Shown piece by piece: positions 11,878-28,669 of a stretch of DNA of 64,000 bases. Each line of letters starts with the position of its first letter. Position 1 is the stretch's first letter. Below the pieces are notes generated by a model. The model was not told the origin of the DNA and did no database searches. It saw only the letters and a program-made list of their open reading frames with translations. The stretch is from an uncultured Planctomycetia bacterium. GTDB lineage: Bacteria; Planctomycetota; Phycisphaerae; FEN-1346; JAACEH01. The DNA is taken from the NCBI GenBank assembly GCA_903929765.1, contig CAIYVX010000023.1:62001-126000 (forward strand), read 5' to 3'. A program made the translations under genes and the position numbers.

Positions 11878-13311
11878 CTACTTTTCTGATTTATAGCCTA
11901 TGGTAAAACTGAACTCCGCATCTTTCGGATGAGGCGTCACGTCACCCAAAAGCGAAGAAAATTCCTTCGAATTCTTGATTTGCAGCCGCAGCTTGTTCCC
12001 CGCTTCAACGTTGCTCGTTGTGCCGCGCAGCGTGATATTCTTCTGGTTGATGCTGATCTGGTTGAACTCCACCGGCTTCACGTCGCTGGGCGCCCCCGCC
12101 AACACCGCCACCAGCTCGTCCAGTTTTTCTTCGGCATCAATGTGGTTCTTCGCTTCCTTCAACTGCGCCGTCAGCCGCGCCACCCGGCGCGACAGATCAT
12201 CATGGAGGTTCTCCAACGCCGGGATCTTGCTGCCGCCCAGCACCGTTTTGTTATCCTTCCAGAACATCACGGGCTGATTTTGCATCTCCCGCAGGGTATT
12301 CTTCTCGCGTTCCGAGGCCAGCAGGAACATCGCTCCGCCCACCGCCAGGCAGAAGCCCAGCAGGAAAATTGCCACCGCACTCAGCAGCGAAACCGCCTGG
12401 GCCGTCTCGCGCGGCACAAACTCCTCCTGACGCATCGAGAGCGGGCGGTCGCTGTTGGTGGCCATGTACAGCGCCACCCCGGCCGCCAGCGGCCAGTGCC
12501 GCGGCGCCGAACTTTCCGCCGCAGACCCGGCCAACTGCGGCGGCGCCACCGTTTGCTGCGGACACCCCAGTTCGTCCGCCACCGCTCGTGCCAGCGTATC
12601 CGCCGCTTCACCCCCGAAACTGAGCACCGCCGCCGGAGTCGGAAAGCCCGGGGCCGACAGGAACAGACGCCGGACTTCCTGGAGCGGCTGGCCCGCCACC
12701 TCCGTCGCCCAGGTCAACGACCGAATCCGCCGGCAGCCCCAGATCAGCCGGCCGTCCGTCACCAGACTCAACGCCACGCTGTCCTCGTCGCCCGAAACTG
12801 CCAGCACCGGCTTGGCGCCAAACTCGCCGCCCAGCGCCCGCACCAGGCCCACGTGACCCAGCGCGTCCGGTGGCATGTATTCCGGAGAAAGGCCCGACGC
12901 CTCATACTTGGCCAACAGTTCGCCGATCCGCTTCTTCGTCGACGCCCAGGCCAGCACGTGGCTCGAATCCGCGCGTTGCTCCAGAATCTGGAACGGGATC
13001 AGCAGCGCCGCCGCCTCGTCCCCCAGATTCTCCTCCAACTCGAACTTGATCGTGTCCCGAATCTGCGACTCCGCCGTAAACGGGATCCACGTCTCGCGGA
13101 TCGAATAGTCGTCCCAGTTGACCAGCGCCGCCAGACCCAGGTTCAAAATCCCCTGTTTCCGGATCAACGCCGTGGCCACGGCCAGCGCGTCCTCGTCCGC
13201 CTTGATCTCCCGACGCTCCAGCGCCACCAGCGACGCCTCGGCCCCGTGGCCCGTGGCCTTGGCCAGTACCACGTACTTACCCGTGATTTGCACCGCTACA
13301 CTTTCCGGCAC
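11878..13311 (-). CDS. GspL / PilM-PilN-like protein
   Basis: Actin-like N-terminal half (MPESVAVQITGKYVVLAKA...), single TM (VSLLSAVAIFLLGFCLAVGGAMFLL), coiled coil; position in gsp cluster. Confidence 0.65.
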   Translation of the reverse strand: MPESVAVQITGKYVVLAKATGHGAEASLVALERREIKADEDALAVATALIRKQGILNLGLAALVNWDDYSIRETWIPFTAESQIRDTIKFELEENLGDEAAALLIPFQILEQRADSSHVLAWASTKKRIGELLAKYEASGLSPEYMPPDALGHVGLVRALGGEFGAKPVLAVSGDEDSVALSLVTDGRLIWGCRRIRSLTWATEVAGQPLQEVRRLFLSAPGFPTPAAVLSFGGEAADTLARAVADELGCPQQTVAPPQLAGSAAESSAPRHWPLAAGVALYMATNSDRPLSMRQEEFVPRETAQAVSLLSAVAIFLLGFCLAVGGAMFLLASEREKNTLREMQNQPVMFWKDNKTVLGGSKIPALENLHDDLSRRVARLTAQLKEAKNHIDAEEKLDELVAVLAGAPSDVKPVEFNQISINQKNITLRGTTSNVEAGNKLRLQIKNSKEFSSLLGDVTPHPKDAEFSFTIGYKSEK

Positions 13312-13320
13312 GGTTTTCTC

Positions 13321-14613
13321 CTAAGGTTCCAGACGACGCCACAAGATGTTCATGTCCCCTTTTCCGGTGCGCTGAACCACCATGGTCAGCCGCGCCGTGT
13401 ACATCGGTCCCTGGTCCGCCGGTGACGCCGCTGCTGCCGCCGCGTCTTTGGCCGCCGCCGACCCCGATGAAGCCGCTGTCGCCGAGACCGCCGTCGACCC
13501 GAACGGCATGAAGGGGATTTTTTTCAGCACCGGCACCGTCAGCACCGGCGCCGAAGGATCCAGCGGCGCCGTCTTCGCCAGCGGCGCATAAACCGCCGTC
13601 GCATGCACAATGAAATTCGTGCTCGTCACCGCCAGTTCCTTGCGCAGTTGCCGCGAATCTCGGGTCGATATACCCGCTGCCCGGCTGAGTTGTGACATGT
13701 TCGTGATCGGCTGTTGCTCCCGCGCCTGGATGATCTGGTCCACCTCTTCCATTTGGCCGGACAGCGTCGGCGTGGACCCCAGCACCTCCCGGAAGGCCGT
13801 GTTCACGTTCGGCGTCCCGCCGGTCCCGCCGCTGCTGCTCCAACTCGTCACCATGTCCATGAACCGCGTGTGGATCGTATCGCCTGTGGTCGGATCAGTA
13901 TCATCCACGCCCGCCGACTGGATCGCCGCGATGTCGTCCGCCGTCAACCCGGGCAAATTCAGGTAATCTTCCAGCCACACCGGCTGAAATTTCGCCGTCG
14001 GCTGGCTCGCCATTGATGGCGCCGGCGTCGTCGTCAGGGTGGATGTCCCGTTCGCCTGGTTGGCCGGACCGGTGTTCACCGCCGTCGGCTGCGTCACAAA
14101 AATCTGGTTCTCCGTGTACTTGAGCTGCGCCTGGGTCACGATCGCATTGGCCAGATCGTTCGCCACCGCCGGCGTCAGACCGCACGAGGTTGAAAACGTG
14201 ATAAAGTTCTGCACGTTCGTCTTCAGCGTGTCCGGATCGGTCGCCAGCAGTTGCGTCAGGTCGTACATCCGGTCCGCGTCCGTGATCTGGATGGCGATCA
14301 GCACCACCCGCGGCGATTCCAGGTCGCCCAGGTTGATCAGGAACGCCTTCGGAAAATTCCACTCGTCGAACAACGTATCCGCCTGGACGCTCGCCGCCGG
14401 CGCTGCAAAGATCTGCCGTACCAGACCCGGCACCGAATCCAGCGCCCGCCGGCATTCGTGAACGTACGTCCGCGTCTTCGCCTGGCGATACGACAGCGTC
14501 GCCGAAGTCTGAACCTGGGCGACCAGCAACGTCAACGCCAGCAGCACCAGCAGCGTCACCAGGAGCGCCACCCCGCGTCGCCGGCCGGAAGTTGTGGAAC
14601 GCCTAATGCCCAC
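13321..14613 (-). CDS. gspK: T2SS minor pseudopilin GspK (GTG start inferred)
   Basis: RRRGVALLVTLLVLLALTLLVAQ leader; size and helix-hairpin-like C-terminus; overlaps end of gspJ. Confidence 0.78.
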   Translation of the reverse strand: MGIRRSTTSGRRRGVALLVTLLVLLALTLLVAQVQTSATLSYRQAKTRTYVHECRRALDSVPGLVRQIFAAPAASVQADTLFDEWNFPKAFLINLGDLESPRVVLIAIQITDADRMYDLTQLLATDPDTLKTNVQNFITFSTSCGLTPAVANDLANAIVTQAQLKYTENQIFVTQPTAVNTGPANQANGTSTLTTTPAPSMASQPTAKFQPVWLEDYLNLPGLTADDIAAIQSAGVDDTDPTTGDTIHTRFMDMVTSWSSSGGTGGTPNVNTAFREVLGSTPTLSGQMEEVDQIIQAREQQPITNMSQLSRAAGISTRDSRQLRKELAVTSTNFIVHATAVYAPLAKTAPLDPSAPVLTVPVLKKIPFMPFGSTAVSATAASSGSAAAKDAAAAAASPADQGPMYTARLTMVVQRTGKGDMNILWRRLEP

Positions 14614-15667
14614 TTGGTCTTCCACCTCCGCCGAAAGGCGAACCGCCGCCCGTTCCACCAAAGGGCGATCTGCCGCCATTGCCGCTTGGGCCGCTGGTGC
14701 CGGTCGGACCACTGGCACCGCTCGGACCACTGGTACCAGTACCAGTTCTCGGACCCGTACTGCCGCGACCGCTTCCGCCCGCTCCCGTCATCCCACCCCC
14801 GCCGCCGTTGCCGGTCAGGAGGCTCGAACCGTTCAACCCGCTCGTATCGACCGAGATGTCCTGCGCCGCCAGGGCGCTCGTCAACGTCGCATTCAGCATC
14901 TCCGTCTGCACCGATATCATCGGCATCCGAATGATCCGTTCCAGTGAAAACGGCGGGCTCCCATTAACCCCGCCCCCGGTCAAATTGATCCGAACCGCCA
15001 CCGGAATCTTGTCTGCTCCGAACCCGCCCGTCCACTCGTTCTTGAACTCCGCCGGCGGTGGCGGCTGGCCGTTGGCCACCGGCAAGGGCGGCGGAAGAAA
15101 TTCAATTTTAAACTCCGTCAGGTTGTCCGCCAGCAGCACCAGACCCTGGTCCGAATTCCGAATCGTGTTGGCCGCCAGGTTCGTCTCAATCGCCATCTCG
15201 CGCCGCTGCACGACAATCAAGTTCGGATTCTTCGGATCCTGCGACGCCATATATGCCACCTCAATCAGCCCCGGGTTCTGCCGCAGATCGTCGCTCACAC
15301 GCATTCCCGACAGGCACGGAAAGGCGATGCTCGTCAGCTTGCTCCCCGAGGTGTCCTGCTGGTTCAGCATGAAGTACGTCCGCGTATCGTAAACGTGAAT
15401 CTGCTCCAGATCGTGCGCCAGCAGGTCCATCACCCCCGTCGCCGCCTCCAGCGTCCCCAGCCGGTCGTCGATCTTCTCCCGCGAGGAGACCGTCGTCGAG
15501 AACATCGTCATCAGGGCCAGGAACATCAGCGACAGAATCACGATCGCCGCCACCAACTCGATCAGCGTCATCGCCCTGGCCGTGAAATTTAACCCCTCTC
15601 CCTTGAGAGAGGGTGGCCCTTCAGGGCCGGGTGAGGGCTTGAGGCTAAGGTCTAACCGCAAGTTCAT
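14603..15667 (-). CDS. gspJ: T2SS minor pseudopilin GspJ with Gly/Ser/Thr/Pro-rich tail
   Basis: NFTARAMTLIELVAAIVILSLMFLALM prepilin segment; ATGA overlap with gspI. Confidence 0.75.
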   Translation of the reverse strand: MNLRLDLSLKPSPGPEGPPSLKGEGLNFTARAMTLIELVAAIVILSLMFLALMTMFSTTVSSREKIDDRLGTLEAATGVMDLLAHDLEQIHVYDTRTYFMLNQQDTSGSKLTSIAFPCLSGMRVSDDLRQNPGLIEVAYMASQDPKNPNLIVVQRREMAIETNLAANTIRNSDQGLVLLADNLTEFKIEFLPPPLPVANGQPPPPAEFKNEWTGGFGADKIPVAVRINLTGGGVNGSPPFSLERIIRMPMISVQTEMLNATLTSALAAQDISVDTSGLNGSSLLTGNGGGGGMTGAGGSGRGSTGPRTGTGTSGPSGASGPTGTSGPSGNGGRSPFGGTGGGSPFGGGGRPSGH

Positions 15668-16428
15668 GGCCGCTTCCCCGTTCCGCCCGTAGGACCAGTC
15701 CCGCCAGTCCCACCGGTTGCCCCAGTAGCTCCCGTGGTTCCCGTCGTCGGGCCTGTTGTCGTCCCTGTCGAAGCGATCACCGGTTTCGGCAGCCAAGCCT
15801 CCACCACCACCAGCGGTTTAGGCTGCGCCGTACCACCCATCATCCGGTGAACCTCGATCCGCACCGCCACGAACGTTCCTGGATCGAAATCGTTGTTCGC
15901 CGACGTGTCGCTCTTCGTCGCCATGGTCGATTTGAATCCGCCGCCCGGCGCCGTCCCGGAGGTCGCCAGGCCCAGGGCCACCAGCGCCGCCTGACGTCCG
16001 TCCGGATCGAGCTCGATCTGGTTCTGCTCCTGGAGCGGAGTGTGTTCCGCGATGATCCGGTGAATCTCGAATTCTTCCGTCGTGTAACCGTCCACCGACA
16101 CGGTGTCATCAGAACTGAACGTCCCGTCCGGCTCGGCCATGAACACCGGGCTGGCCAGGAACGCATCCAGCGCCGCCTCAGCCGCCGCCGTCGCCCGCGA
16201 CAACTCCGCCGTCCTCCGCGCCGTATCCACCGAACCGGCCTGGATCGCCAGCGTCGCCACCACCGCCGTCGCCACGATCACCATGGCCGCCACGACCTCC
16301 AGCAGCGTGAATCCAGTGGCACGGGCGTCTCGCCCGTGAGTCGCAGGGGCATCTTGCCCCTCCAATGCAGTTTGTAAGGGGAAGACGTCCAGGACATGAT
16401 TTTTCAACCGGCCGCTGCCAGCCATCAT
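15664..16428 (-). CDS. gspI: T2SS minor pseudopilin GspI with Gly/Thr-rich tail
   Basis: ATGFTLLEVVAAMVIVATAVVATLAIQAG; ATGA overlap with gspH. Confidence 0.78.
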   Translation of the reverse strand: MMAGSGRLKNHVLDVFPLQTALEGQDAPATHGRDARATGFTLLEVVAAMVIVATAVVATLAIQAGSVDTARRTAELSRATAAAEAALDAFLASPVFMAEPDGTFSSDDTVSVDGYTTEEFEIHRIIAEHTPLQEQNQIELDPDGRQAALVALGLATSGTAPGGGFKSTMATKSDTSANNDFDPGTFVAVRIEVHRMMGGTAQPKPLVVVEAWLPKPVIASTGTTTGPTTGTTGATGATGGTGGTGPTGGTGKRP

Positions 16429-17009
16429 TTCGTCCCCGGTTGCCGCGCCACCATCTCTATGTGAAGCTCCGAATCCGACGGTTGCTCGAATCCCGACATC
16501 AGCTTCGTCACTCCGGTCAGCGGGTTGATCTTCAGCGTCATCTTGTAATCACGTTGCTCGTGTTGAAAATATAGCCGCACCGGCGTACACACGCCCGTGG
16601 GCCAGAACCGCAGGATCACCGTCTCCGTTTTATTCAGCAGCGTGTCCGCGCCAACCATCGTCTTTTCCAGACTGACCCGCTCGCTCCAAGTTTGGGTCAG
16701 GTACGGCGCCGCGTCCGGCGAAAACGCATTCGGATCATCCGCCGCGTCCTCGTAAAAAAACGAAGCCGTGTGGGTGCGCGGATCCAACTCGCCCCGGACG
16801 ACCTTGCCGGTGATGACCGCCTCGGCCCGGGCATTGCGCAGCAGCCGCGCCACGTCGCTCGCCTCGCGGTTCGTCTCGAAGCGCGGATTGATCGAATCCA
16901 CGTGGAGCAACGCCATGCCCGTCACCAGGACGATTATGGCAACGACCACCATGATTTCGAGCAGCGTAAAGCCGCCCGCCCGTGGTCCCACCGCGCCAGG
17001 CTTGATCAC
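16425..17009 (-). CDS. gspH: T2SS minor pseudopilin GspH
   Basis: GGFTLLEIMVVVAIIVLVTGMALL prepilin motif. Confidence 0.78.
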   Translation of the reverse strand: MIKPGAVGPRAGGFTLLEIMVVVAIIVLVTGMALLHVDSINPRFETNREASDVARLLRNARAEAVITGKVVRGELDPRTHTASFFYEDAADDPNAFSPDAAPYLTQTWSERVSLEKTMVGADTLLNKTETVILRFWPTGVCTPVRLYFQHEQRDYKMTLKINPLTGVTKLMSGFEQPSDSELHIEMVARQPGTK

Positions 17010-17013
17010 ATCA

Positions 17014-17511
17014 CTATCCCCCGGCTATCCCCGATCCACCGGACTGCCACCCTTCCGGGTCCGTGACGCCATTGGAACCGAAGTCCGCCGCATAGCCCGT
17101 GCCGCCGGCCTTCTTGTCACTGCCGTAGCTAACGACCAGGAACTCCGTGGCGCCCGTAGTCTGATTTACCCGCGTGTGATACTGGTAGGGCGTGCCCCAG
17201 GGATCTTTAAAGGTAGTCGTCTGCTTCAGGTACGGGCCGCTCCAGTTTGTCGCGTCTGCCGGCGCCGTGATCAGCGCCTGGAGACCCTGGTCGTCGGTCG
17301 GATAACTCCCGACGTCCATCCGAAACAACTCCAGGGCCGTACAGAACGTACTCATTTCGCTCTTGGCCCCTTTGACCTTGTTTGAGTCGATGATCCCCGG
17401 CAACTCCAGCACCGCCGCGCTCACCATCACCCCGATGATCACCATGACGGCAATAATCTCCAGCAAAGTAAAGGCCCGAGTCGTCCGCCGCGCCTGGTTC
17501 TCTGTCCTCAT
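17014..17511 (-). CDS. gspG: T2SS major pseudopilin GspG
   Basis: RAFTLLEIIAVMVIIGVMVSAAV, YPTDDQGLQALI, DPWGTPYQY, VVSYGSD. Confidence 0.92.
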   Translation of the reverse strand: MRTENQARRTTRAFTLLEIIAVMVIIGVMVSAAVLELPGIIDSNKVKGAKSEMSTFCTALELFRMDVGSYPTDDQGLQALITAPADATNWSGPYLKQTTTFKDPWGTPYQYHTRVNQTTGATEFLVVSYGSDKKAGGTGYAADFGSNGVTDPEGWQSGGSGIAGG

Positions 17512-17525
17512 TGCCTGGCTACCTC

Positions 17526-18746
17526 CTATCCAATGCTGCTGCTCATCTTAAAGATCGGCAGCATCACCGCGGCCACGATGAAGCCCACGATGCTTGCCAC
17601 CACCAGTATCATCACCGGCTGTAACAACGCGTTCAGCCGGGCCACGCTGATCTCCACTTCCTGGTTCAGGCTTTGCGACATGCGGCCCAAAACCTGTTCC
17701 AACTCGCCGCTCTGTTCGCCCACGGCCACCATGTGCGCCACGCTCTTGGGAATGATCGGACTGCGCCGCAAGACCGTACTCACGTCCGACCCCCGAATCA
17801 CGCTCTCCTGAAGGTCGTTGATCGTCTCCCGTACCAGAGTATTGTTCGAAGTCTCCAGCAGCACCGCCATGCAGTCCGCCATCCGCACCCCGCTCGCCAG
17901 AAGAGTCCGCAGTGTACTCGTGAACAGCACCGTTTGCTGCTTGCGGATCACGTCGCCCAGCACCGGAACGCGCAGAACCTGCGTGTCCCAGAAGTGGTGT
18001 CCGCGCTTGGTCTTCAGCAACGTGATCAGGCCGACCACGCAAGCCACCGCCGCGATAATCATCAGCGGCCAGTAGTGCGACGAAAAACCGTAAAAGCCCA
18101 TCAAAATCCGCGTCGGCAGCGGCAATTCCGTCCCGGCGCTCAACAGCAGATCCCTGATCTTCGGCAGCACCGACGTCATCAGGTACGTCACCGCCCCGAT
18201 CGCCACCACCACCATGATAATCGGATAAATCATCACCGTGGCCACCTGACCGCGACGCGTGGCCTGCTCACGCAGATGCTCCGCCATCTTCCGCAGCACC
18301 TCCGGCAGGTTGCCCGCCGTCTCACCCACTCGAACCATGCTGATATACATGTGCCCGAACGTCCCCTCGTACGGCTCCAGGGCGTCCGCCACGCTGATCC
18401 CGCTCGCCACCCGGTCGCGGATGTCCCGCAGCATGTTCAGAAAACGCTTGTCCGACACGTCCTCCATCGCAATCCCCAACGCATCCGTCAGCTTGATCTC
18501 GTTCTCCAGCAGCACCGCCAACTGCCGCGTCACCGCCTCCAGCAGCACCGGGTTCCGCCCCCGGCCCCGCCACAGCGAAGACAGCGTGATGCCCTTGCGC
18601 TCCGCGTACGTCGCCGAGGCCAGGCCCGTCACGTGCAGATTCTGGTCGCGCAACACCCGCCGCGCGTCCTGCACCGACTCCGCCTCCAGCGTCCCGCTCG
18701 ACCGCTGGCCGCCCGCTCCCAGAGCCTCGTAACGATATACCGGCAA
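17526..18746 (-). CDS. gspF: T2SS inner membrane platform protein GspF
   Basis: VLLENEIKLTDALGIAM, GNLPEVLRKMAEHLREQ, VGEQSGELEQVLGRM, typical GspF repeats. Confidence 0.92.
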   Translation of the reverse strand: MPVYRYEALGAGGQRSSGTLEAESVQDARRVLRDQNLHVTGLASATYAERKGITLSSLWRGRGRNPVLLEAVTRQLAVLLENEIKLTDALGIAMEDVSDKRFLNMLRDIRDRVASGISVADALEPYEGTFGHMYISMVRVGETAGNLPEVLRKMAEHLREQATRRGQVATVMIYPIIMVVVAIGAVTYLMTSVLPKIRDLLLSAGTELPLPTRILMGFYGFSSHYWPLMIIAAVACVVGLITLLKTKRGHHFWDTQVLRVPVLGDVIRKQQTVLFTSTLRTLLASGVRMADCMAVLLETSNNTLVRETINDLQESVIRGSDVSTVLRRSPIIPKSVAHMVAVGEQSGELEQVLGRMSQSLNQEVEISVARLNALLQPVMILVVASIVGFIVAAVMLPIFKMSSSIG

Positions 18747-18767
18747 ATCTTACCTCTTCTTCTTTTC

Positions 18768-18800
18768 AAGCCCCCAGCACCGCTGGGGGACGCTGTTGTT
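18768..18800. repeat. Interspersed hairpin element, family C (AAGCCCCCAGCAYYGCTGGGGGACGCTGTTG)
   Basis: Copies at 26571, 47260, 52453, 54932; usually followed by a G-poor T/C-rich tract. Confidence 0.8.
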
Positions 18801-18870
18801 GTTTCTTCTTTTTCTTCTGTTTCTTCTTTTTCTTCTGCTGCGCCTGAAGCCTGAAGCCTGAAGCCTTCTT

Positions 18871-20571
18871 CTAATACACGTCCCGCTGCGTCACGCGCAT
18901 TACTTCTTCCAGCGTCGTCTCGCCCGCCACGGCCTTCAGCGCGCCGTCCATACGCAACGTCCTCATGCCCCGCTCCACCGCGGTGCTCTTCATCACCGAC
19001 GCGCTGGCGTGACTCTGAATCTGCGCCCGCACCTCGTCGTCCACCATCAGCAATTCATAAATCCCCGTCCGGCCGTAGTACCCCGTGTGCAGGCATTCCT
19101 CGCAGCCGCGCCCTCGCCATAGCGGCGTCCCCTCGCGAATCAGCGTGCCCACGTCCAACTGTCGCACGATCCGCGGATCCGGCGTGTAGGGTTCCTTGCA
19201 CTTCTGGCAGATGCGCCGCACCAGTCGCTGAGCCATCGCCGCCAACAGGCTCGACGACACCAGGTACGGTTCCAGCCCCAGGTCCAGGAGCCGGGCCATC
19301 GTGCTCGGCGCGTCGTTGGTGTGTACTGTCGAAAAGACCAAATGCCCCGTCAGAGAAGCCTGGATCGCCAACCGCGCCGTCTCCAGGTCGCGGATTTCCC
19401 CCACCATGATCACGTCCGGGTCTTGACGCATCAGGTGCCGCAGCGTCGTCGCAAACGTCAGGCCCTTCTTGGTCGCCACCTGAATCTGGCTGATCCCCTG
19501 GAGCTGATACTCGATCGGATCTTCCACGGTCAGCACGTTCAACTCCGCCGAGTTCACCCGGTTCAGGCATGCGTACAGCGTCGTCGTCTTGCCGCTGCCC
19601 GTCGGTCCCGTCACCAGGATGATCCCGTGATCCATCGTGATCAGGCTCATCACCTTCGCCCGCAGCTCATCGTCCAGACCGACCCGCTCCAGGTCGTACA
19701 CGCCCGAGCTCTTGTCCAGCAGACGCAGCACCACGCGCTCGCCATAACTGGTGGGCACGATGCTCACACGCAGGTCCACCTCGCGGTTCCCGATCCGGAC
19801 CGTGCAACGGCCGTCCTGCGGCATGCGCCGCTCCGCAATGTCCATCCCCGCCATGACCTTGATGCGCGACGTGATCAGCGGCTGAACGCTACGCGATGGG
19901 CTGAACACGTCGTACAGCAAGCCGTCGATCCGGTACCGGATCTGTACCTTGTTCTCGTACGGATGAACGTGAATGTCGCTGGCCCGCGTCTTCAGCCCGC
20001 GGAACAGAATGCTGTTTACCAGCCGGATCACCGGCGGTTTGTTCACCACGTCCAGCAGGTCGTCGCTGGAGCCTACCTGGTGGGCCAGCGACTCCATCGC
20101 CGCATCGTCCAACTCCTCCACGATCTCGTCCACCACGTCCATGCGGTCTTCGTACGCCGAATCGATCGCCCCGGCCACCTCGCTTCGCGGCGCCACCACC
20201 AGACGCACCACCTGGCCCAGACGCTTCTCCACGTCCTCCAGCGGATAGGCCGCCAGCGGGCTGCACGTCGCCACGATCATCGTCCCGTTATCCGTCCCCA
20301 CGCCCACCAGGCCGTGACGCCGCGCGAACATCGCCGGAATTTTCTCCTTGAACTCGACCGGAACATCCTTGCCGTGCAGCGCCTCACGGTACTCCAGGCC
20401 CAGCACCTCCGAAAAGTGCCGCAGCACTTCTTCCTCGGTGAACCGCCCGTCTTCCGCCAGAACCTGTTCCAGCGATCGACCGTGCGCCCCGGCCTCCACC
20501 AGCGCCGCCTGGAGTTGTTCGTGCCCCATCGACTTGAACGAGTCCAGCCATTTAAAATAATACTCTGCCAT
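18871..20571 (-). CDS. gspE: T2SS ATPase GspE
   Basis: ILVTGPTGSGKTTTLYACLNRVN, DPIEYQLQGISQIQV, MRQDPDVIMVGEIRDLETARLAIQASLTGHLVFSTVHTNDA, CxxC zinc motif. Confidence 0.95.
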   Translation of the reverse strand: MAEYYFKWLDSFKSMGHEQLQAALVEAGAHGRSLEQVLAEDGRFTEEEVLRHFSEVLGLEYREALHGKDVPVEFKEKIPAMFARRHGLVGVGTDNGTMIVATCSPLAAYPLEDVEKRLGQVVRLVVAPRSEVAGAIDSAYEDRMDVVDEIVEELDDAAMESLAHQVGSSDDLLDVVNKPPVIRLVNSILFRGLKTRASDIHVHPYENKVQIRYRIDGLLYDVFSPSRSVQPLITSRIKVMAGMDIAERRMPQDGRCTVRIGNREVDLRVSIVPTSYGERVVLRLLDKSSGVYDLERVGLDDELRAKVMSLITMDHGIILVTGPTGSGKTTTLYACLNRVNSAELNVLTVEDPIEYQLQGISQIQVATKKGLTFATTLRHLMRQDPDVIMVGEIRDLETARLAIQASLTGHLVFSTVHTNDAPSTMARLLDLGLEPYLVSSSLLAAMAQRLVRRICQKCKEPYTPDPRIVRQLDVGTLIREGTPLWRGRGCEECLHTGYYGRTGIYELLMVDDEVRAQIQSHASASVMKSTAVERGMRTLRMDGALKAVAGETTLEEVMRVTQRDVY

Positions 20572-20622: not shown

Positions 20623-23142
20623 TTATTTCGTCACGCTTCCCGGCGTCGCCGGAATGTTCGATGACGGCGCCTGGTCCGGCGTCATCACGGGCATGGGCAG
20701 TCCGCCCTTGTGCGTCCTGCGTTCCTCCGCCCGCGCCGCTTCCTCCAACACCTTCTTCTCCGCCGCACGCTTCCTAATCACGGAGTTCAGTTTATCCGCC
20801 TCTTTGGCCGCCGCCTCCTCGGAAAGACCCGGATCAAGAACCCTGATGTCCTTCGACAGCACCGTCCGCGTCGACCGGGTCTCGTCGAACATGTCGTCGA
20901 ACGACACGTCGCGCAGAATGCTCGCCTTGACGAACAGATAATCGGTCGTGTTCTGATCGGTGTTGGCATGCGCCTTGAACAGTTCGCCCAGAATCGGGAT
21001 GTCCCCAATGATCGGCACCATGGTCGTCCCTTCCGTGTGGTTGCGGCCCTTCAGTCCGCCCACCACCACCGTCATCTGATCCGGCACCGTCACCTGCGTC
21101 GTCAGCGTCCGGTCCGATTGCGGCGGGGGAATGCTTCCGTCGGCCGAACTCGGGCCGGTGAATGCGCTCACCTCCAGGTTGATGTCCAGCTTGATGAAGT
21201 TTCCGTCGCTGATCATCGGCGTAATCTGCAACTTCGTCCCGGCCTGGATATAGCCCTTGAAGCTCACGGTCGTCACGTTCGACGTCAGTGCGTCCAGCGA
21301 GGTCGTCGGCTGCTCGTCCACACTCTGGAGGGTCGCGTTCTTGAAGTTGTTATTCACGAGCATGCGCGGCTTCGACAGCGTCCGCGACTTTGTCTTCGCG
21401 TCCACCGCCTGCAGCAGCGCCAGCACCTGGCCGTCATCCAGAAACGCCATCGTGCCGCCCAAAAGCGAAGACGCTCCGCCCGAGGCCGTCACCGACAGAA
21501 TCGGCGGCTTTACGTTGGTCAGACCCAACGCCGTCCCCGCATAAGGCGAGCCTACGCCACCCCTGGTTTTCGGCCGGAAGTTTTCCAACTCCACCCCGAG
21601 GTTGAAATTGTCCCCGTCCACCACCTCCAGCAGCGTCGCCTCCAGCAGCACCTGCGGCTGGCTGGCGTCCACCTGCGCGATCAACCGCGCGATGTCCTCG
21701 TGTTGCTGCGGCGAGGCGCTGGCGATCACCGCGTTGATATCCGTCAGCGAAACGACCGTCGGCGCGCCTTCCACTCCCGGCAGCGCCGCATGCGTTCGCG
21801 GGTCCACGCTTCCGGCGTTGAACACGCTCTTGAGCATCGTCGCCACGTCGTCCGAGTTGCGCCGCGCCAGCGGATAGACCCGGATCGCCCCGAACTCCGA
21901 CGGCATCTGGTCCACCTGCTTCACGAACTCCGCCACCACCTTCTGGTCCTCCGGCAGGGCCACCAGAATCAGCGTGTTCTGATTTTCCAGCACCGTCAGT
22001 TTTGGCGGCGCCCCCGTCCCGTACAGCATCGTCCCGCCGCCGCTCGCCGGCGTCTGGTTCCCCGGCATCACCGGGCCCGCCGGTCGCGCACTAGTCTTTT
22101 TCCCGGCGCCGCTCGTGTTCAAGTCCGGACCCAGCAGGCTCAGGGCCGTGATCGCCGCTACCACGTCGTCGGCCGCCTGGTATTGCAGCGGATAGAACTT
22201 TATCTCCTGCAAGTTGATCTTGGGCACGTCGTACAGATCCACCAGTTCCTTCAGATCGTCCAGGTCGGCCGGTACGCCGATGATCACCAGCGCGTTCGTC
22301 CGCTCATTGACGTCGATGAACGGCGGCAGCTCCTGCGGCGCCGCCACTACGGTGTAAACTATTTTCGACGTCGGACCAGCGCCCTGCCTCGTCGGTATTG
22401 TCTTCGTCAACTTCCCCTGACGCGACGCGATGAACATTTGCAGCCGCGCTTGCATGTCCGGCGCCTTCACAAATTTCAGTTGATAGTCGCGCTTCTCGAA
22501 CTTCTTTACCGGCACGTCCAGCAGCTTGATGAATTGCCGCAGGTCGTCCACCCGGCTCTTGTACTCCGTTATTTGCAGCAACTTCCGGTCCGGCATCGGC
22601 GTCACGAACCCGTAGTCGCTCATGTACGGCATCAGGGCGTCCTGGATGTCGCGCGGATCCGCGTACGTCAGCGACATCGTCTCCGTCACGATCGTTTCGC
22701 CCTGCGCCGCCGGCGACTGCTTGTTCGGCGGCAGAAGTTCCGTAAACGATGACGCCTTGCCCGTCGGCATGATCCGAATCCAATCCCCGTGCGAGGCCCG
22801 CATCATCACCAGGTTCTTCGTCCGCAACGCTTCTTCCAGAACAGAGTACAGTTCCGAAACCTTCACCTTCTTGTTCGGTTCGACCACGATGGTCCCCGCC
22901 AGATCGGCATTGTCATAGATGAATTTCAGTTGCAACCGCGCTCCGACGTATTCCACGAACATTTGGATGCTGACCGGATTCGGAAAAGTGTCAAAAGACA
23001 CCGTTTCCTCTGCCGCCGCCGGCGTCGCGCTCGACCCCTGGCCCCACGACCACGATGGCCCGCCCAACAGCAGACCCGCCGCCACGGTCGTCGCCAGCAC
23101 CATCTTGACAGCTACGCCGTTCGTGAATATCCTCTTCTTCAT
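20623..23142 (-). CDS. gspD: T2SS secretin GspD
   Basis: N0 then N1-N3-like repeats, secretin core VPDQMTVVVGGLKGRNHTEGTTMVPIIGDIPILGELFK; start at MKKRIFTNG (or MGEKMEIMKK at about 23163). Confidence 0.93.
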   Translation of the reverse strand: MKKRIFTNGVAVKMVLATTVAAGLLLGGPSWSWGQGSSATPAAAEETVSFDTFPNPVSIQMFVEYVGARLQLKFIYDNADLAGTIVVEPNKKVKVSELYSVLEEALRTKNLVMMRASHGDWIRIMPTGKASSFTELLPPNKQSPAAQGETIVTETMSLTYADPRDIQDALMPYMSDYGFVTPMPDRKLLQITEYKSRVDDLRQFIKLLDVPVKKFEKRDYQLKFVKAPDMQARLQMFIASRQGKLTKTIPTRQGAGPTSKIVYTVVAAPQELPPFIDVNERTNALVIIGVPADLDDLKELVDLYDVPKINLQEIKFYPLQYQAADDVVAAITALSLLGPDLNTSGAGKKTSARPAGPVMPGNQTPASGGGTMLYGTGAPPKLTVLENQNTLILVALPEDQKVVAEFVKQVDQMPSEFGAIRVYPLARRNSDDVATMLKSVFNAGSVDPRTHAALPGVEGAPTVVSLTDINAVIASASPQQHEDIARLIAQVDASQPQVLLEATLLEVVDGDNFNLGVELENFRPKTRGGVGSPYAGTALGLTNVKPPILSVTASGGASSLLGGTMAFLDDGQVLALLQAVDAKTKSRTLSKPRMLVNNNFKNATLQSVDEQPTTSLDALTSNVTTVSFKGYIQAGTKLQITPMISDGNFIKLDINLEVSAFTGPSSADGSIPPPQSDRTLTTQVTVPDQMTVVVGGLKGRNHTEGTTMVPIIGDIPILGELFKAHANTDQNTTDYLFVKASILRDVSFDDMFDETRSTRTVLSKDIRVLDPGLSEEAAAKEADKLNSVIRKRAAEKKVLEEAARAEERRTHKGGLPMPVMTPDQAPSSNIPATPGSVTK

Positions 23143-23620
23143 GATCTCCATCTTCTCTCCCATCCGTCTGTTGATCGTCCTGGCCTGTGCCGCCCTGGCT
23201 CCGGCCCTGCCCGGCTGCCCGCCGGCCGCCAAAACCGGTCTCAATGCCGCGGCCAATTCCCACGAATCCGCCGCCGATGTCCTCCGTCTCAGAACCGACA
23301 GCCTGCTACACGCCATTGTGCTCTTCAAAAACGACGAAATCAAAAACTTCTTTCCCCCCGGCGCCGACGTCGACGTTATCCGGCAACTCGACCTTTATCT
23401 GAAAGCGCCCTACCCCAGAACCCGCGTTCTGAGCTGGAACGCCGAAAACGTTTTTGTCCAAATATCTCCCGACGGTCGCTTCGCTCGAACCGCCACGCGC
23501 CTCGAATTTCTTGCCTCCGACCCCAAGGCCAAACCCCTCCCTCAGGAAATCACCTTTGAGTGGCAAGCCGACGAAAAAGGCGCCGTCTTCTACCTCGTCC
23601 CCCTTAAGCTCGCCCCATGA
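23141..23620 (+). CDS. Small putative lipoprotein of unknown function
   Basis: MISIFSPIRLLIVLACAALAPALPGC lipobox-like signal; soluble C-terminal domain; start codon overlaps that of divergent gspD. Confidence 0.6.
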   Translation: MISIFSPIRLLIVLACAALAPALPGCPPAAKTGLNAAANSHESAADVLRLRTDSLLHAIVLFKNDEIKNFFPPGADVDVIRQLDLYLKAPYPRTRVLSWNAENVFVQISPDGRFARTATRLEFLASDPKAKPLPQEITFEWQADEKGAVFYLVPLKLAP

Positions 23621-23650: not shown

Positions 23651-24442
23651 CTACTGGCCTGGACCGTTCGGTCCGCCGCCGCCCCGCTGGCCACGCATTT
23701 GACGCAACCGCGCCCGGTTGTCTGGTCCTGCTGTCGGTGTCGCGCTCGACGACACCGTCGGTGGACCGCTTGGCGGACCGCCGATCATCCGGCCGCTGAA
23801 CGTAACCCGGCTCACTGGCGGCGGAGTTGACACAGTCGGCATCGCAATGGCCGGCGGCGGCAACCCTGCGCCGTTCCACGTCGCTGCTCCAACGGTCCCC
23901 GCCATCGGCCCCGGACCACCTGGGGTCCCGGGCTGACCCGCCGGACCGGCTAGGGCCACCGAACGCCTCAAGGCCCCGGTCTCCCCGTTCACGGTAATCT
24001 TGACCATCCCGTTGTGAATCTGTTCGACGGCCAATTCGTCTAGTTTCCGGAATTGCTGCACCGTCATGACCAGGGTCCTGTTGTCCCCCTTGTGTTGCAG
24101 GAACACGAAACCCTTATCATCCCCCTCCGACGCCAGACCGACCATTGTCCAACCGTGGAACTCATCCGTCGCCCGCGACCAGATGTCGGTCTGCTCCGAC
24201 GTCTTCGGCGGCGGATAGAGAAAGTCGCTCAGTTGCGCCAGGTTCTGGTCGATCGCCACCTCTTTCGGTTTGATCAACTGTCGCACCCTGGGCTTCACCG
24301 CGGTCGGCTTTGATCCTTGTGCCGCCTCGCCGCTGGCCAGGCTGGGATAGACCATCACCCCAACCATGCCTAAGAGGCCCAGCGACAACACGCCGATGGC
24401 CGCGCACAGCAACCGAAACATCGTCGAGGATCGAAGTGCCAT
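23651..24442 (-). CDS. GspC-like inner membrane protein (tentative)
   Basis: Single N-terminal TM, Pro-rich linker, small beta-type domain, position upstream of gspD. Confidence 0.45.
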   Translation of the reverse strand: MALRSSTMFRLLCAAIGVLSLGLLGMVGVMVYPSLASGEAAQGSKPTAVKPRVRQLIKPKEVAIDQNLAQLSDFLYPPPKTSEQTDIWSRATDEFHGWTMVGLASEGDDKGFVFLQHKGDNRTLVMTVQQFRKLDELAVEQIHNGMVKITVNGETGALRRSVALAGPAGQPGTPGGPGPMAGTVGAATWNGAGLPPPAIAMPTVSTPPPVSRVTFSGRMIGGPPSGPPTVSSSATPTAGPDNRARLRQMRGQRGGGGPNGPGQ

Positions 24443-26869: not shown

Positions 26870-28669
26870 CTAACCCGGATACCGCACATAAACCGGGCAG
26901 GGGCCCACTTCAACTTTCACCTTCCCGCCCTCCACCTTCACCGTCCGCTCATGTCCGAACATGTCCGTCACCACCGCATCGGCTGCCCAGCCAAACATCG
27001 GCAACTCCACCGTCTTCGGCCCCGCTACGTTCCACGCCATAATCACTGGCATTACCTTGCCGCCCACGGGACGCCTGATATCCGCCTGAAGCGAGAAAGC
27101 ATAATACCCATCCGTACCTTCGCTGATCACTTTCTCAATCCGCGGTCGCGGCAACATCTTTATCATCGTCTGCGCCGCATATGCCGACGGCCGCCACGAG
27201 CCATCCCGCAGGAAAAATCCCCCGTTGAAACCATCCGTGTCCGTGCAGAACATGATATGCACCCGTCCCACCCCCAGCCGCAGTGCCAGCGCGTACAGCC
27301 GCACCACATACGCCGCCTGCAACAGCGGGGTCGTCGGACGCCCCGCCGTCTCGAACCGTCCGCCATCCTCTTTCCCTATTGCCCAGCCCACCTCCGTGTA
27401 CCAGATCGGCTTCCCCTCCGCGCCGTTCTCTTTCATCATTTTCCGGATTGCCGCCCAACTCCGGGCCACCGAATAGCTCCCCCACGACTCCACCTTGTCG
27501 CTCTCCGGCGGAACCTCGTGGACGTAGGGATGCGTCGACAAAATGTCGAAACTCTTTCCCGCCGCCTCATTCTTCGCAAACACGTGCTCGAAGAACCGCA
27601 GGTCGCCCTGGCTCGACCCGCCCGCCCCGAACCCCACCACCCGCACGAGCGGCCACTTCTTTTTCACCAACTCACACGCCGCCGGCAGCACCTTCGCATA
27701 GAGCGCCTCCCGTTCCGCCTCCACCTCGCCGGGATGTTTCTCCTTGTGCGGCGGAATCAGGTACTGAAAATTCGGCTCGTTCCAGATCTCCACCGCCATG
27801 ATCGGCCGCTTCGCCAGAGCCGGATTCTCCTCAAAAAACTTCCCTCCCGGCCCGTATCGCGTCAGAAACGCGTCGATGCTCTTCATATAATCCGCAATGA
27901 ATGCCTCATCCGAATCGTAATCCAGACGGTTTTTCTTCTCGCCCGATATCGCCGGATCCAGTTGCAGGCACTTCATCACTTCCATCTCATCCGCCACAAA
28001 GATCTTCATCGCCTCGTCATCCAGCGGCCCCCCGATGCGCAGCGACTTCCACCCCACCTTCAGAATGCTCGCCCGATTATTTTTGTATTCATCCGTCCAT
28101 GTGTACAATCCATACGGTGCGCCGCCACCGGCCTGCACCGTCTCCAGCGCCGGCCACGGCTGCGCCGACAACTTCCACGATCCCGGTATCTTCTCCGGCT
28201 GAACCACGGCCGCGCTCACGTCCACTTTCGCTGCCGCAGTTGCGTTCGCCGCCGCGGGCGTCAGCCCTTTCGGCACCGGCAGTTGCGTAAACGACGCCGC
28301 TTTGCTCTGCGGCAGAATCCTGATCCAATCCCCGTCTTTCGCCTTGATCATCACCAGGTGCTTCGTGCGCAGCACATCTTCCAGCAGGCCATACAGTTCC
28401 GAAATCTTCACCACGTTCGGCAGGATCGTGATGACTCCGCCGGCTTTCAAGTCCGCCGGATCATAGATGAATTTCAGTTGCAGTTTATTTCCGACGAAGG
28501 TCACAAACGATTGCACCGATTGATCCTGCGGCAGAGGTGTAAGATCAACTGTTGCCTCCGCCGCAACCGCCGACTGCCCGGCCATCGCCGAAACCGCCAT
28601 TTCCGCCCCAGGCGCCGACCCCGCCCATCCCGCCAGCACCAACACCATCACGGCCATTCGTATCATCAT
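26870..28669 (-). CDS. Secreted glycoside hydrolase (clan GH-A-like) with N-terminal secretin N0/STN-like domain
   Basis: SD AAGGAGG; signal peptide MMIRMAVMVLVLAGWAGSAPGAE; SFVTFVGNKLQLKFIYDPADL...ISELYGLLEDVLRTKHLVMIKAKDGDWIRILP parallels GspD; catalytic-type EIWNEPN and WYTEVGW. Confidence 0.82.
   Translation of the reverse strand: MMIRMAVMVLVLAGWAGSAPGAEMAVSAMAGQSAVAAEATVDLTPLPQDQSVQSFVTFVGNKLQLKFIYDPADLKAGGVITILPNVVKISELYGLLEDVLRTKHLVMIKAKDGDWIRILPQSKAASFTQLPVPKGLTPAAANATAAAKVDVSAAVVQPEKIPGSWKLSAQPWPALETVQAGGGAPYGLYTWTDEYKNNRASILKVGWKSLRIGGPLDDEAMKIFVADEMEVMKCLQLDPAISGEKKNRLDYDSDEAFIADYMKSIDAFLTRYGPGGKFFEENPALAKRPIMAVEIWNEPNFQYLIPPHKEKHPGEVEAEREALYAKVLPAACELVKKKWPLVRVVGFGAGGSSQGDLRFFEHVFAKNEAAGKSFDILSTHPYVHEVPPESDKVESWGSYSVARSWAAIRKMMKENGAEGKPIWYTEVGWAIGKEDGGRFETAGRPTTPLLQAAYVVRLYALALRLGVGRVHIMFCTDTDGFNGGFFLRDGSWRPSAYAAQTMIKMLPRPRIEKVISEGTDGYYAFSLQADIRRPVGGKVMPVIMAWNVAGPKTVELPMFGWAADAVVTDMFGHERTVKVEGGKVKVEVGPCPVYVRYPG

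Follow-up and report, generated by a model that had tools for sequence, protein, structure and literature searches.

How the T2SS recognises folded substrates is a long-standing open question, and a puzzling one because these substrates share no obvious signal. An exoenzyme naturally fused to the entrance domain of its own secretin would be a clean test of this recognition, and one gene in the DNA analysed here encodes a hydrolase preceded by a domain resembling the N0 of the secretin encoded nearby. Where did this domain come from, has it been maintained, and what might it do on an enzyme? The window, which is the whole stretch of 64,000 nucleotides analysed, corresponds to C23:62001-126000 of a draft genome of 3.83 Mb in 116 contigs.

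Layout of the fusion gene and its T2SS surroundings

The fusion gene and the parts of its product were read as follows.

26870..28669, (-): N0-hydrolase fusion gene, 599 aa, an uninterrupted open frame with its start ATG at 28669
28604..28669, (-): N-terminal stretch resembling a signal peptide, residues 1 to ~22, MMIRMAVMVLVLAGWAGSAPGA, judged by eye
28280..28552, (-): secretin N0 domain, residues 40-130, from beta1 TVDLTPLP to SFTQL, assigned by homology to the genome's own GspD and by predicted fold
28205..28279, (-): Ala-rich linker, residues 131-155, where the homology to GspD fades, about where GspD N1 begins
26873..28204, (-): GH39/PslG-like hydrolase domain, residues 156-599, assigned by alignment and profile similarity

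An in-frame GTG located 30 nt upstream of the ATG is a possible alternative start. The N-terminal hydrophobic stretch shows weak homology to the signal region of GspD, and an Ala-rich stretch also separates the signal-peptide-like start from N0.

The earlier note placed this gene close to a T2SS cluster, and the cluster proved to be genuine: GspL, K, H, G and F were recognised in the window by Pfam, and GspD was recognised by both Pfam and NCBIfam.

20623..23151, (-): gspD, the most likely source of the N0 copy (Secretin 4e-32, Secretin_N 8.5e-32), likely start MEIMKKR
11878..20571, (-): remaining genes of the T2SS cluster, GspL, K, (J), I-like, H, G, F and E, by Pfam and motifs
23651..24442, (-): GspC-like gene, judged by its position and by a topology of one membrane span followed by a small domain

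The mechanical ORF of gspD extends to 23343, and GspD matched the NCBIfam model TIGR02517 with 1.3e-81, which is below the model cut-off. The Pfam matches of GspL (5e-5) and GspK (7.6e-4) were both slightly under their cut-offs, and GspE (18871-20571) was read from motifs. Neither Pfam nor NCBIfam gave a match for the GspC-like gene; in the sister genus a homologue (E 7.7e-15) occupies the same place, immediately upstream of gspD. The fusion gene lies ~2.4 kb upstream of the GspC-like gene and on the same strand as the cluster, with a fumarase-type lyase gene between the two. It is near the gsp operon, not demonstrably part of it.

The N-terminal region matches the N0 domain of the genome's own GspD

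A genome-wide search with the 80-residue N0 block of the fusion protein returned three matches: itself, the GspD of the window (64% identity, E 6e-26) and another secretin, encoded on contig C4 (29%, E 6.5e-4). The corresponding part of GspD is the following.

22735..22971, (-): 79-residue N0 core of GspD, by sequence match to the fusion N0

The 64% computed over the 80-residue block agrees with the estimate made by hand in the earlier note, which had the block SELY...GDWIRI about two-thirds identical. The Smith-Waterman score against GspD was 257, while the maximum of 1,000 shuffles was 69. An alignment almost without gaps to the N-terminus of GspD had also been described; the homology held and is even wider than claimed (residues 4-148, 47% protein identity), but the alignment is interrupted by an insertion of two residues and a deletion of one. 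In DNA, the fusion gene and the 5' end of gspD agree at 278 of 421 positions (66%, E 2e-42), and this homology spans the signal region, N0 and the start of the linker and stops near the start of GspD N1. The fusion and its homology to the N0 of the genome's own secretin are real.

An assembly or gene-calling artefact would have to be considered for any draft genome in 116 contigs, and here it is extremely improbable. One frame runs through both N0 and the hydrolase, and the N0 segment is not a misassembled piece of gspD because the DNA identity is only 66%. In addition, the fusion N0 groups with the GspD of the same genome in the tree described below, and there was no other close genome match. 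Recent gene conversion or misassembly as the cause of the similarity was likewise set aside, as there is no near-identical tract between the fusion gene and gspD.

Family and fold of the N-terminal domain

The HMM check proposed for a secretin N0 gave a match to PF21305 that was seen, yet stayed below threshold: 14.4 bits for the whole fusion protein and 17.3 bits for the excised 80-residue segment, against a cut-off of 27. The window's own GspD was likewise below this cut-off, with 21.4 bits. When a profile of 23 N0 domains that included the fusion N0 was compared with the PDB, the matches were only to N0 structures of the GspD/XcpQ/PulD type. Structure prediction of the fusion protein alone, another check proposed in the earlier note, succeeded in part. 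With a two-row alignment, AlphaFold2 returned a beta-alpha-beta-beta-alpha-beta-beta arrangement with pLDDT ~70-85 over residues 41-110, and Foldseek paired the predicted model with the XcpQ N-terminal structure 4e9j (probability 1.00, E 0.03). However, the excised N0 modelled without an alignment reached pLDDT 45 and gave no usable model. The N-terminal region is predicted to adopt a GspD-type N0 fold with moderate support, moderate because a two-row alignment was used and the excised N0 failed without one.

The fusion N0 resembles the N0 of GspD/XcpQ/PulD (PF21305) in sequence homology, predicted fold and hydrophobic core, and it shares a beta1-loop insertion with its own GspD. It differs in being detached from N1-N3 and the barrel, enzyme-borne and faster evolving. 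By Pfam, PF00263 and PF03958 are missing from the fusion protein and present in GspD; N1-N3 and the secretin C-domain are absent after the fusion N0.

The hydrolase domain

The description of the remaining protein as a GH clan A-like hydrolase was confirmed and could be narrowed to GH39/PslG-like, by profile comparison with the PDB and by the presence of both catalytic Glu, in NEP and TExG motifs. The profile, built from seven hydrolase relatives, matched 5jvk (3.2e-27), PslG (2.7e-17) and then GH39 beta-xylosidases. The two presumed catalytic residues are invariant in the 7-sequence alignment.

27776..27778, (-): Glu298 of WNEPN, presumed acid/base
27392..27394, (-): Glu426 of WYTEVG, presumed nucleophile

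For the hydrolase, Pfam returned no family even at E 10 and NCBIfam no match; phmmer with the whole fusion protein found no match in the PDB, and a search of viral contigs with the hydrolase alignment found none. The AlphaFold2 model of the hydrolase domain, made from a shallow alignment, had pLDDT mostly <50, and Foldseek matches to it are for this reason weak support. From the profile and the conserved Glu pair, the catalytic part of the fusion is best described as a GH39/PslG-like hydrolase of clan A. Profile similarity and both catalytic Glu are shared with GH39/PslG hydrolases (5jvk, 4zn2/5bx9), whereas the subgroup of the fusion is missed by Pfam and, within what was searched, is preceded by a secretin N0 in this lineage alone.

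Origin of the fusion

Among the searched genomes, the closest relative of the hydrolase (55% identical) is found in the sister genus, within the same family, and there a signal peptide alone precedes the hydrolase, without N0. The next-closest relative (L066, G372:C264, 312 bits) has a signal peptide followed by the lead-in PGxW/Y...P.L..V. As L066 belongs to a different class of the phylum, horizontal movement of the hydrolase subfamily is suggested. All 19 other hydrolase loci inspected in the search for relatives likewise lack N0.

In the N0 tree, the fusion N0 is sister to the GspD N0 of the window (92/60), and both window N0s fall inside a 100/99 clade with the GspD of the sister genus. 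Furthermore, a one-residue insertion in the beta1 loop is common to both window N0s and absent from the other 21 N0s. The relatives in the sister genus and in the other class lack N0; therefore, N0 appears to have been added in the lineage of the window, from its own gspD. The most likely course, judging from these sequence comparisons, is that a duplicate of the 5' end of gspD (signal region and N0) became fused in frame with a secreted hydrolase that already existed. The fusion most likely postdates the divergence from the sister genus; support for the sister relation of the two N0s is moderate.

Selection on the copied N0

The fusion copy has evolved ~2.4-fold faster than its source, with branch lengths in the N0 tree of 0.68 for the copy vs 0.28 for GspD. 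The pairwise dN/dS between the fusion N0 and GspD ranged from 0.29 (ML) to 0.59 (NG86), with a bootstrap interval of 0.33-1.03 for the NG86 value. Relaxed constraint on the copy may apply, since this interval just reaches 1 and the branch is longer. Nevertheless, 27 of the 28 columns that form the hydrophobic core family-wide are still hydrophobic in the fusion copy. Neutral simulations started from GspD kept 20-27 core columns (median 23) when half of the differences were placed on the enzyme branch, and 15-24 when all of them were. The amino-acid identity of 0.56 also compares with 0.32-0.44 expected were all changes neutral. These values point to, though not overwhelmingly, an N0 fold kept by selection, with the surface constraint relaxed or changed.

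The same data bear on a serious rival to the docking role considered below, namely that N0 is a passenger domain from gene duplication. In this case, the 5' end of gspD would have been duplicated upstream of the hydrolase and would have given at most a signal peptide and a translation start, and N0 would be a relic that is tolerated but has no partner. Such an origin would fit a homology that takes in the signal region and stops close to the N0/N1 boundary, a copy that evolves faster than the GspD N0, a dN/dS interval that touches 1, and a fusion known from one genome only. The open frame alone proves no function for N0, because the hydrolase too would be lost with any frameshift in N0. However, the retained core lies at the top of the neutral range, and one would expect a useless periplasmic domain of 90 residues to be trimmed. 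Nor did the capture bring an obvious gain, because the relatives of the enzyme already have their own signal peptide. We regard a passenger N0 as possible, on balance doubtful. Even so, it would be a well-placed case of a cargo-type enzyme that has captured a domain of the secretion machine.

Possible roles of the copied N0

Our preferred reading, which we place somewhat short of probable, is that the copied N0 acts as a docking module of some kind at the secretin entrance or at GspC. In the periplasm, N0 would bind another protein and in this way hold or present the enzyme where its own T2SS secretin opens. The partner would be either the GspD ring, through N0-N0 contact, or the HR domain of GspC, through pairing of beta-strands, and the enzyme would be recruited for export or would stay at the site of secretion. 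The more specific proposal that the N0 of an exoenzyme is a tag dedicated to docking, which enters the N0 ring or replaces GspD at GspC, is by analogy conceivable and rather unlikely. If true, N0 would be a transplantable T2SS targeting domain, a kind of domain that classical T2SS substrates are not known to carry.

Contacts of the kind that docking would use are established for secretins. N0 binds the HR domain of GspC (PMC3169554) and that of GspB/OutB (PMC9239104), and face-to-face N0-N0 contacts occur in vivo, their flexibility being important for secretion (PMC10550240, PMC5646246). In addition, the N-terminal region of the secretin has been credited with substrate recruitment (PMC5646246, PMC9239104). 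For docking, the retention of 27/28 core columns favours a domain that has probably stayed folded, and the gene lies on the strand of the cluster, not far upstream of the GspC-like gene. Against docking, the fusion is known from one genome only and the fumarase gene intervenes before the gspC-like gene.

The distribution of differences within N0 helps to weigh the two contact routes. The beta1-alpha1 part of N0 binds GspC in the E. coli complex (PMC3169554), and this half is less conserved in the copy, with 11/25 residues identical vs 39/63 in the rest of N0. At the GspC face, the beta1 residues V-F-F of GspD are V-L-L in the copy and, in alpha1, Y is replaced by F and R by K, so that character is kept and identity is low; all these positions were matched by hand, the alpha1 ones to Thr20 and Asn24 of ETEC GspD (PMC3169554). 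Both the lower conservation of the GspC-binding half and the ~2.4-fold faster evolution of the copy weigh against a mimic of the GspC interface. Because the less conserved half faces GspC, N0-N0 contact appears at least as plausible as GspC mimicry.

Also against docking, N0 is a generic fold that serves signalling and assembly elsewhere. Outside secretins it is found in VirB7-XAC2622, where it mediates homotypic oligomerisation, and in DotD, the signalling domains of TonB-dependent receptors and phage gp44 (PMC3093366). The fusion resembles these proteins in the reuse of the N0 fold outside secretins. In contrast to it, they are structural or signalling parts with no enzyme, and none is described in PMC3093366 as a recent copy of the secretin of its own cell.

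A periplasmic tether or regulator, distinct from an export tag, would use the same contacts to a different end. N0 would then hold the enzyme back at the secretin, within the cell; there, a PslG-like hydrolase would trim exopolysaccharide, clear polymer at the secretion site or compete with GspD for GspC. PslG is a GH39 enzyme linked to exopolysaccharide, and it is among the relatives of the hydrolase; moreover, a domain bound to the ring is as likely to retain a protein as to export it. Nevertheless, no exopolysaccharide genes were identified next to the fusion gene, and we consider a tether quite unlikely.

Occurrence of N0 in the class

N0 matches were found in at least 133 of the 298 genomes of the class. 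The short-frame cases that were opened were all secretins or contig-end pieces of secretins, except for one N0/DUF4097 protein, and all ten further matches checked, in frames of 751 to 1914 aa, belonged to secretins. A 324-aa frame on contig C11 of genome G001 was rejected as a stand-alone N0, since it is a secretin cut by the contig end. The search for other N0-hydrolase fusions suggested in the earlier note therefore yielded none among the matches examined in the 298 class genomes, and one N0 on an unrelated non-secretin. One scan of the genome-contig collection with the fusion protein returned one distant hydrolase alone, and the literature searched contained no paper combining secretin, N0 domain, glycoside hydrolase and fusion. 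On the evidence of those matches that were listed and opened, the N0-hydrolase fusion can be called very rare, but this sample does not justify calling it unique. Both domains are known; their combination and the origin from the cell's own secretin were found nowhere else in the searched genomes and papers.

The N0/DUF4097 protein (L095:4158-5927, + strand, also L033:1159-2928) belongs to genome G264 of the same class and consists of N0 followed by a DUF4097-like region, with a partly masked sequence; its frame overlaps the end of an M56/BlaR1-like frame. Like the fusion, it has N0 on a non-secretin, but the partner domain is unrelated and its N0 is distant.

Several unusual secretins were also observed. 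Many PF00263 matches in the class, for example in G005:C18:6225-6725, G135:C22 and G008:C1, lie in giant open frames of 1,700 to 6,169 codons, and these giant secretin-domain proteins form a seemingly widespread family in the class, distinct from GspD. Two secretins of ~1,900 aa (L085:5114-10759 and L086:4980-10721) have a long extension ahead of N0, and the latter contains eight Secretin_N stretches.
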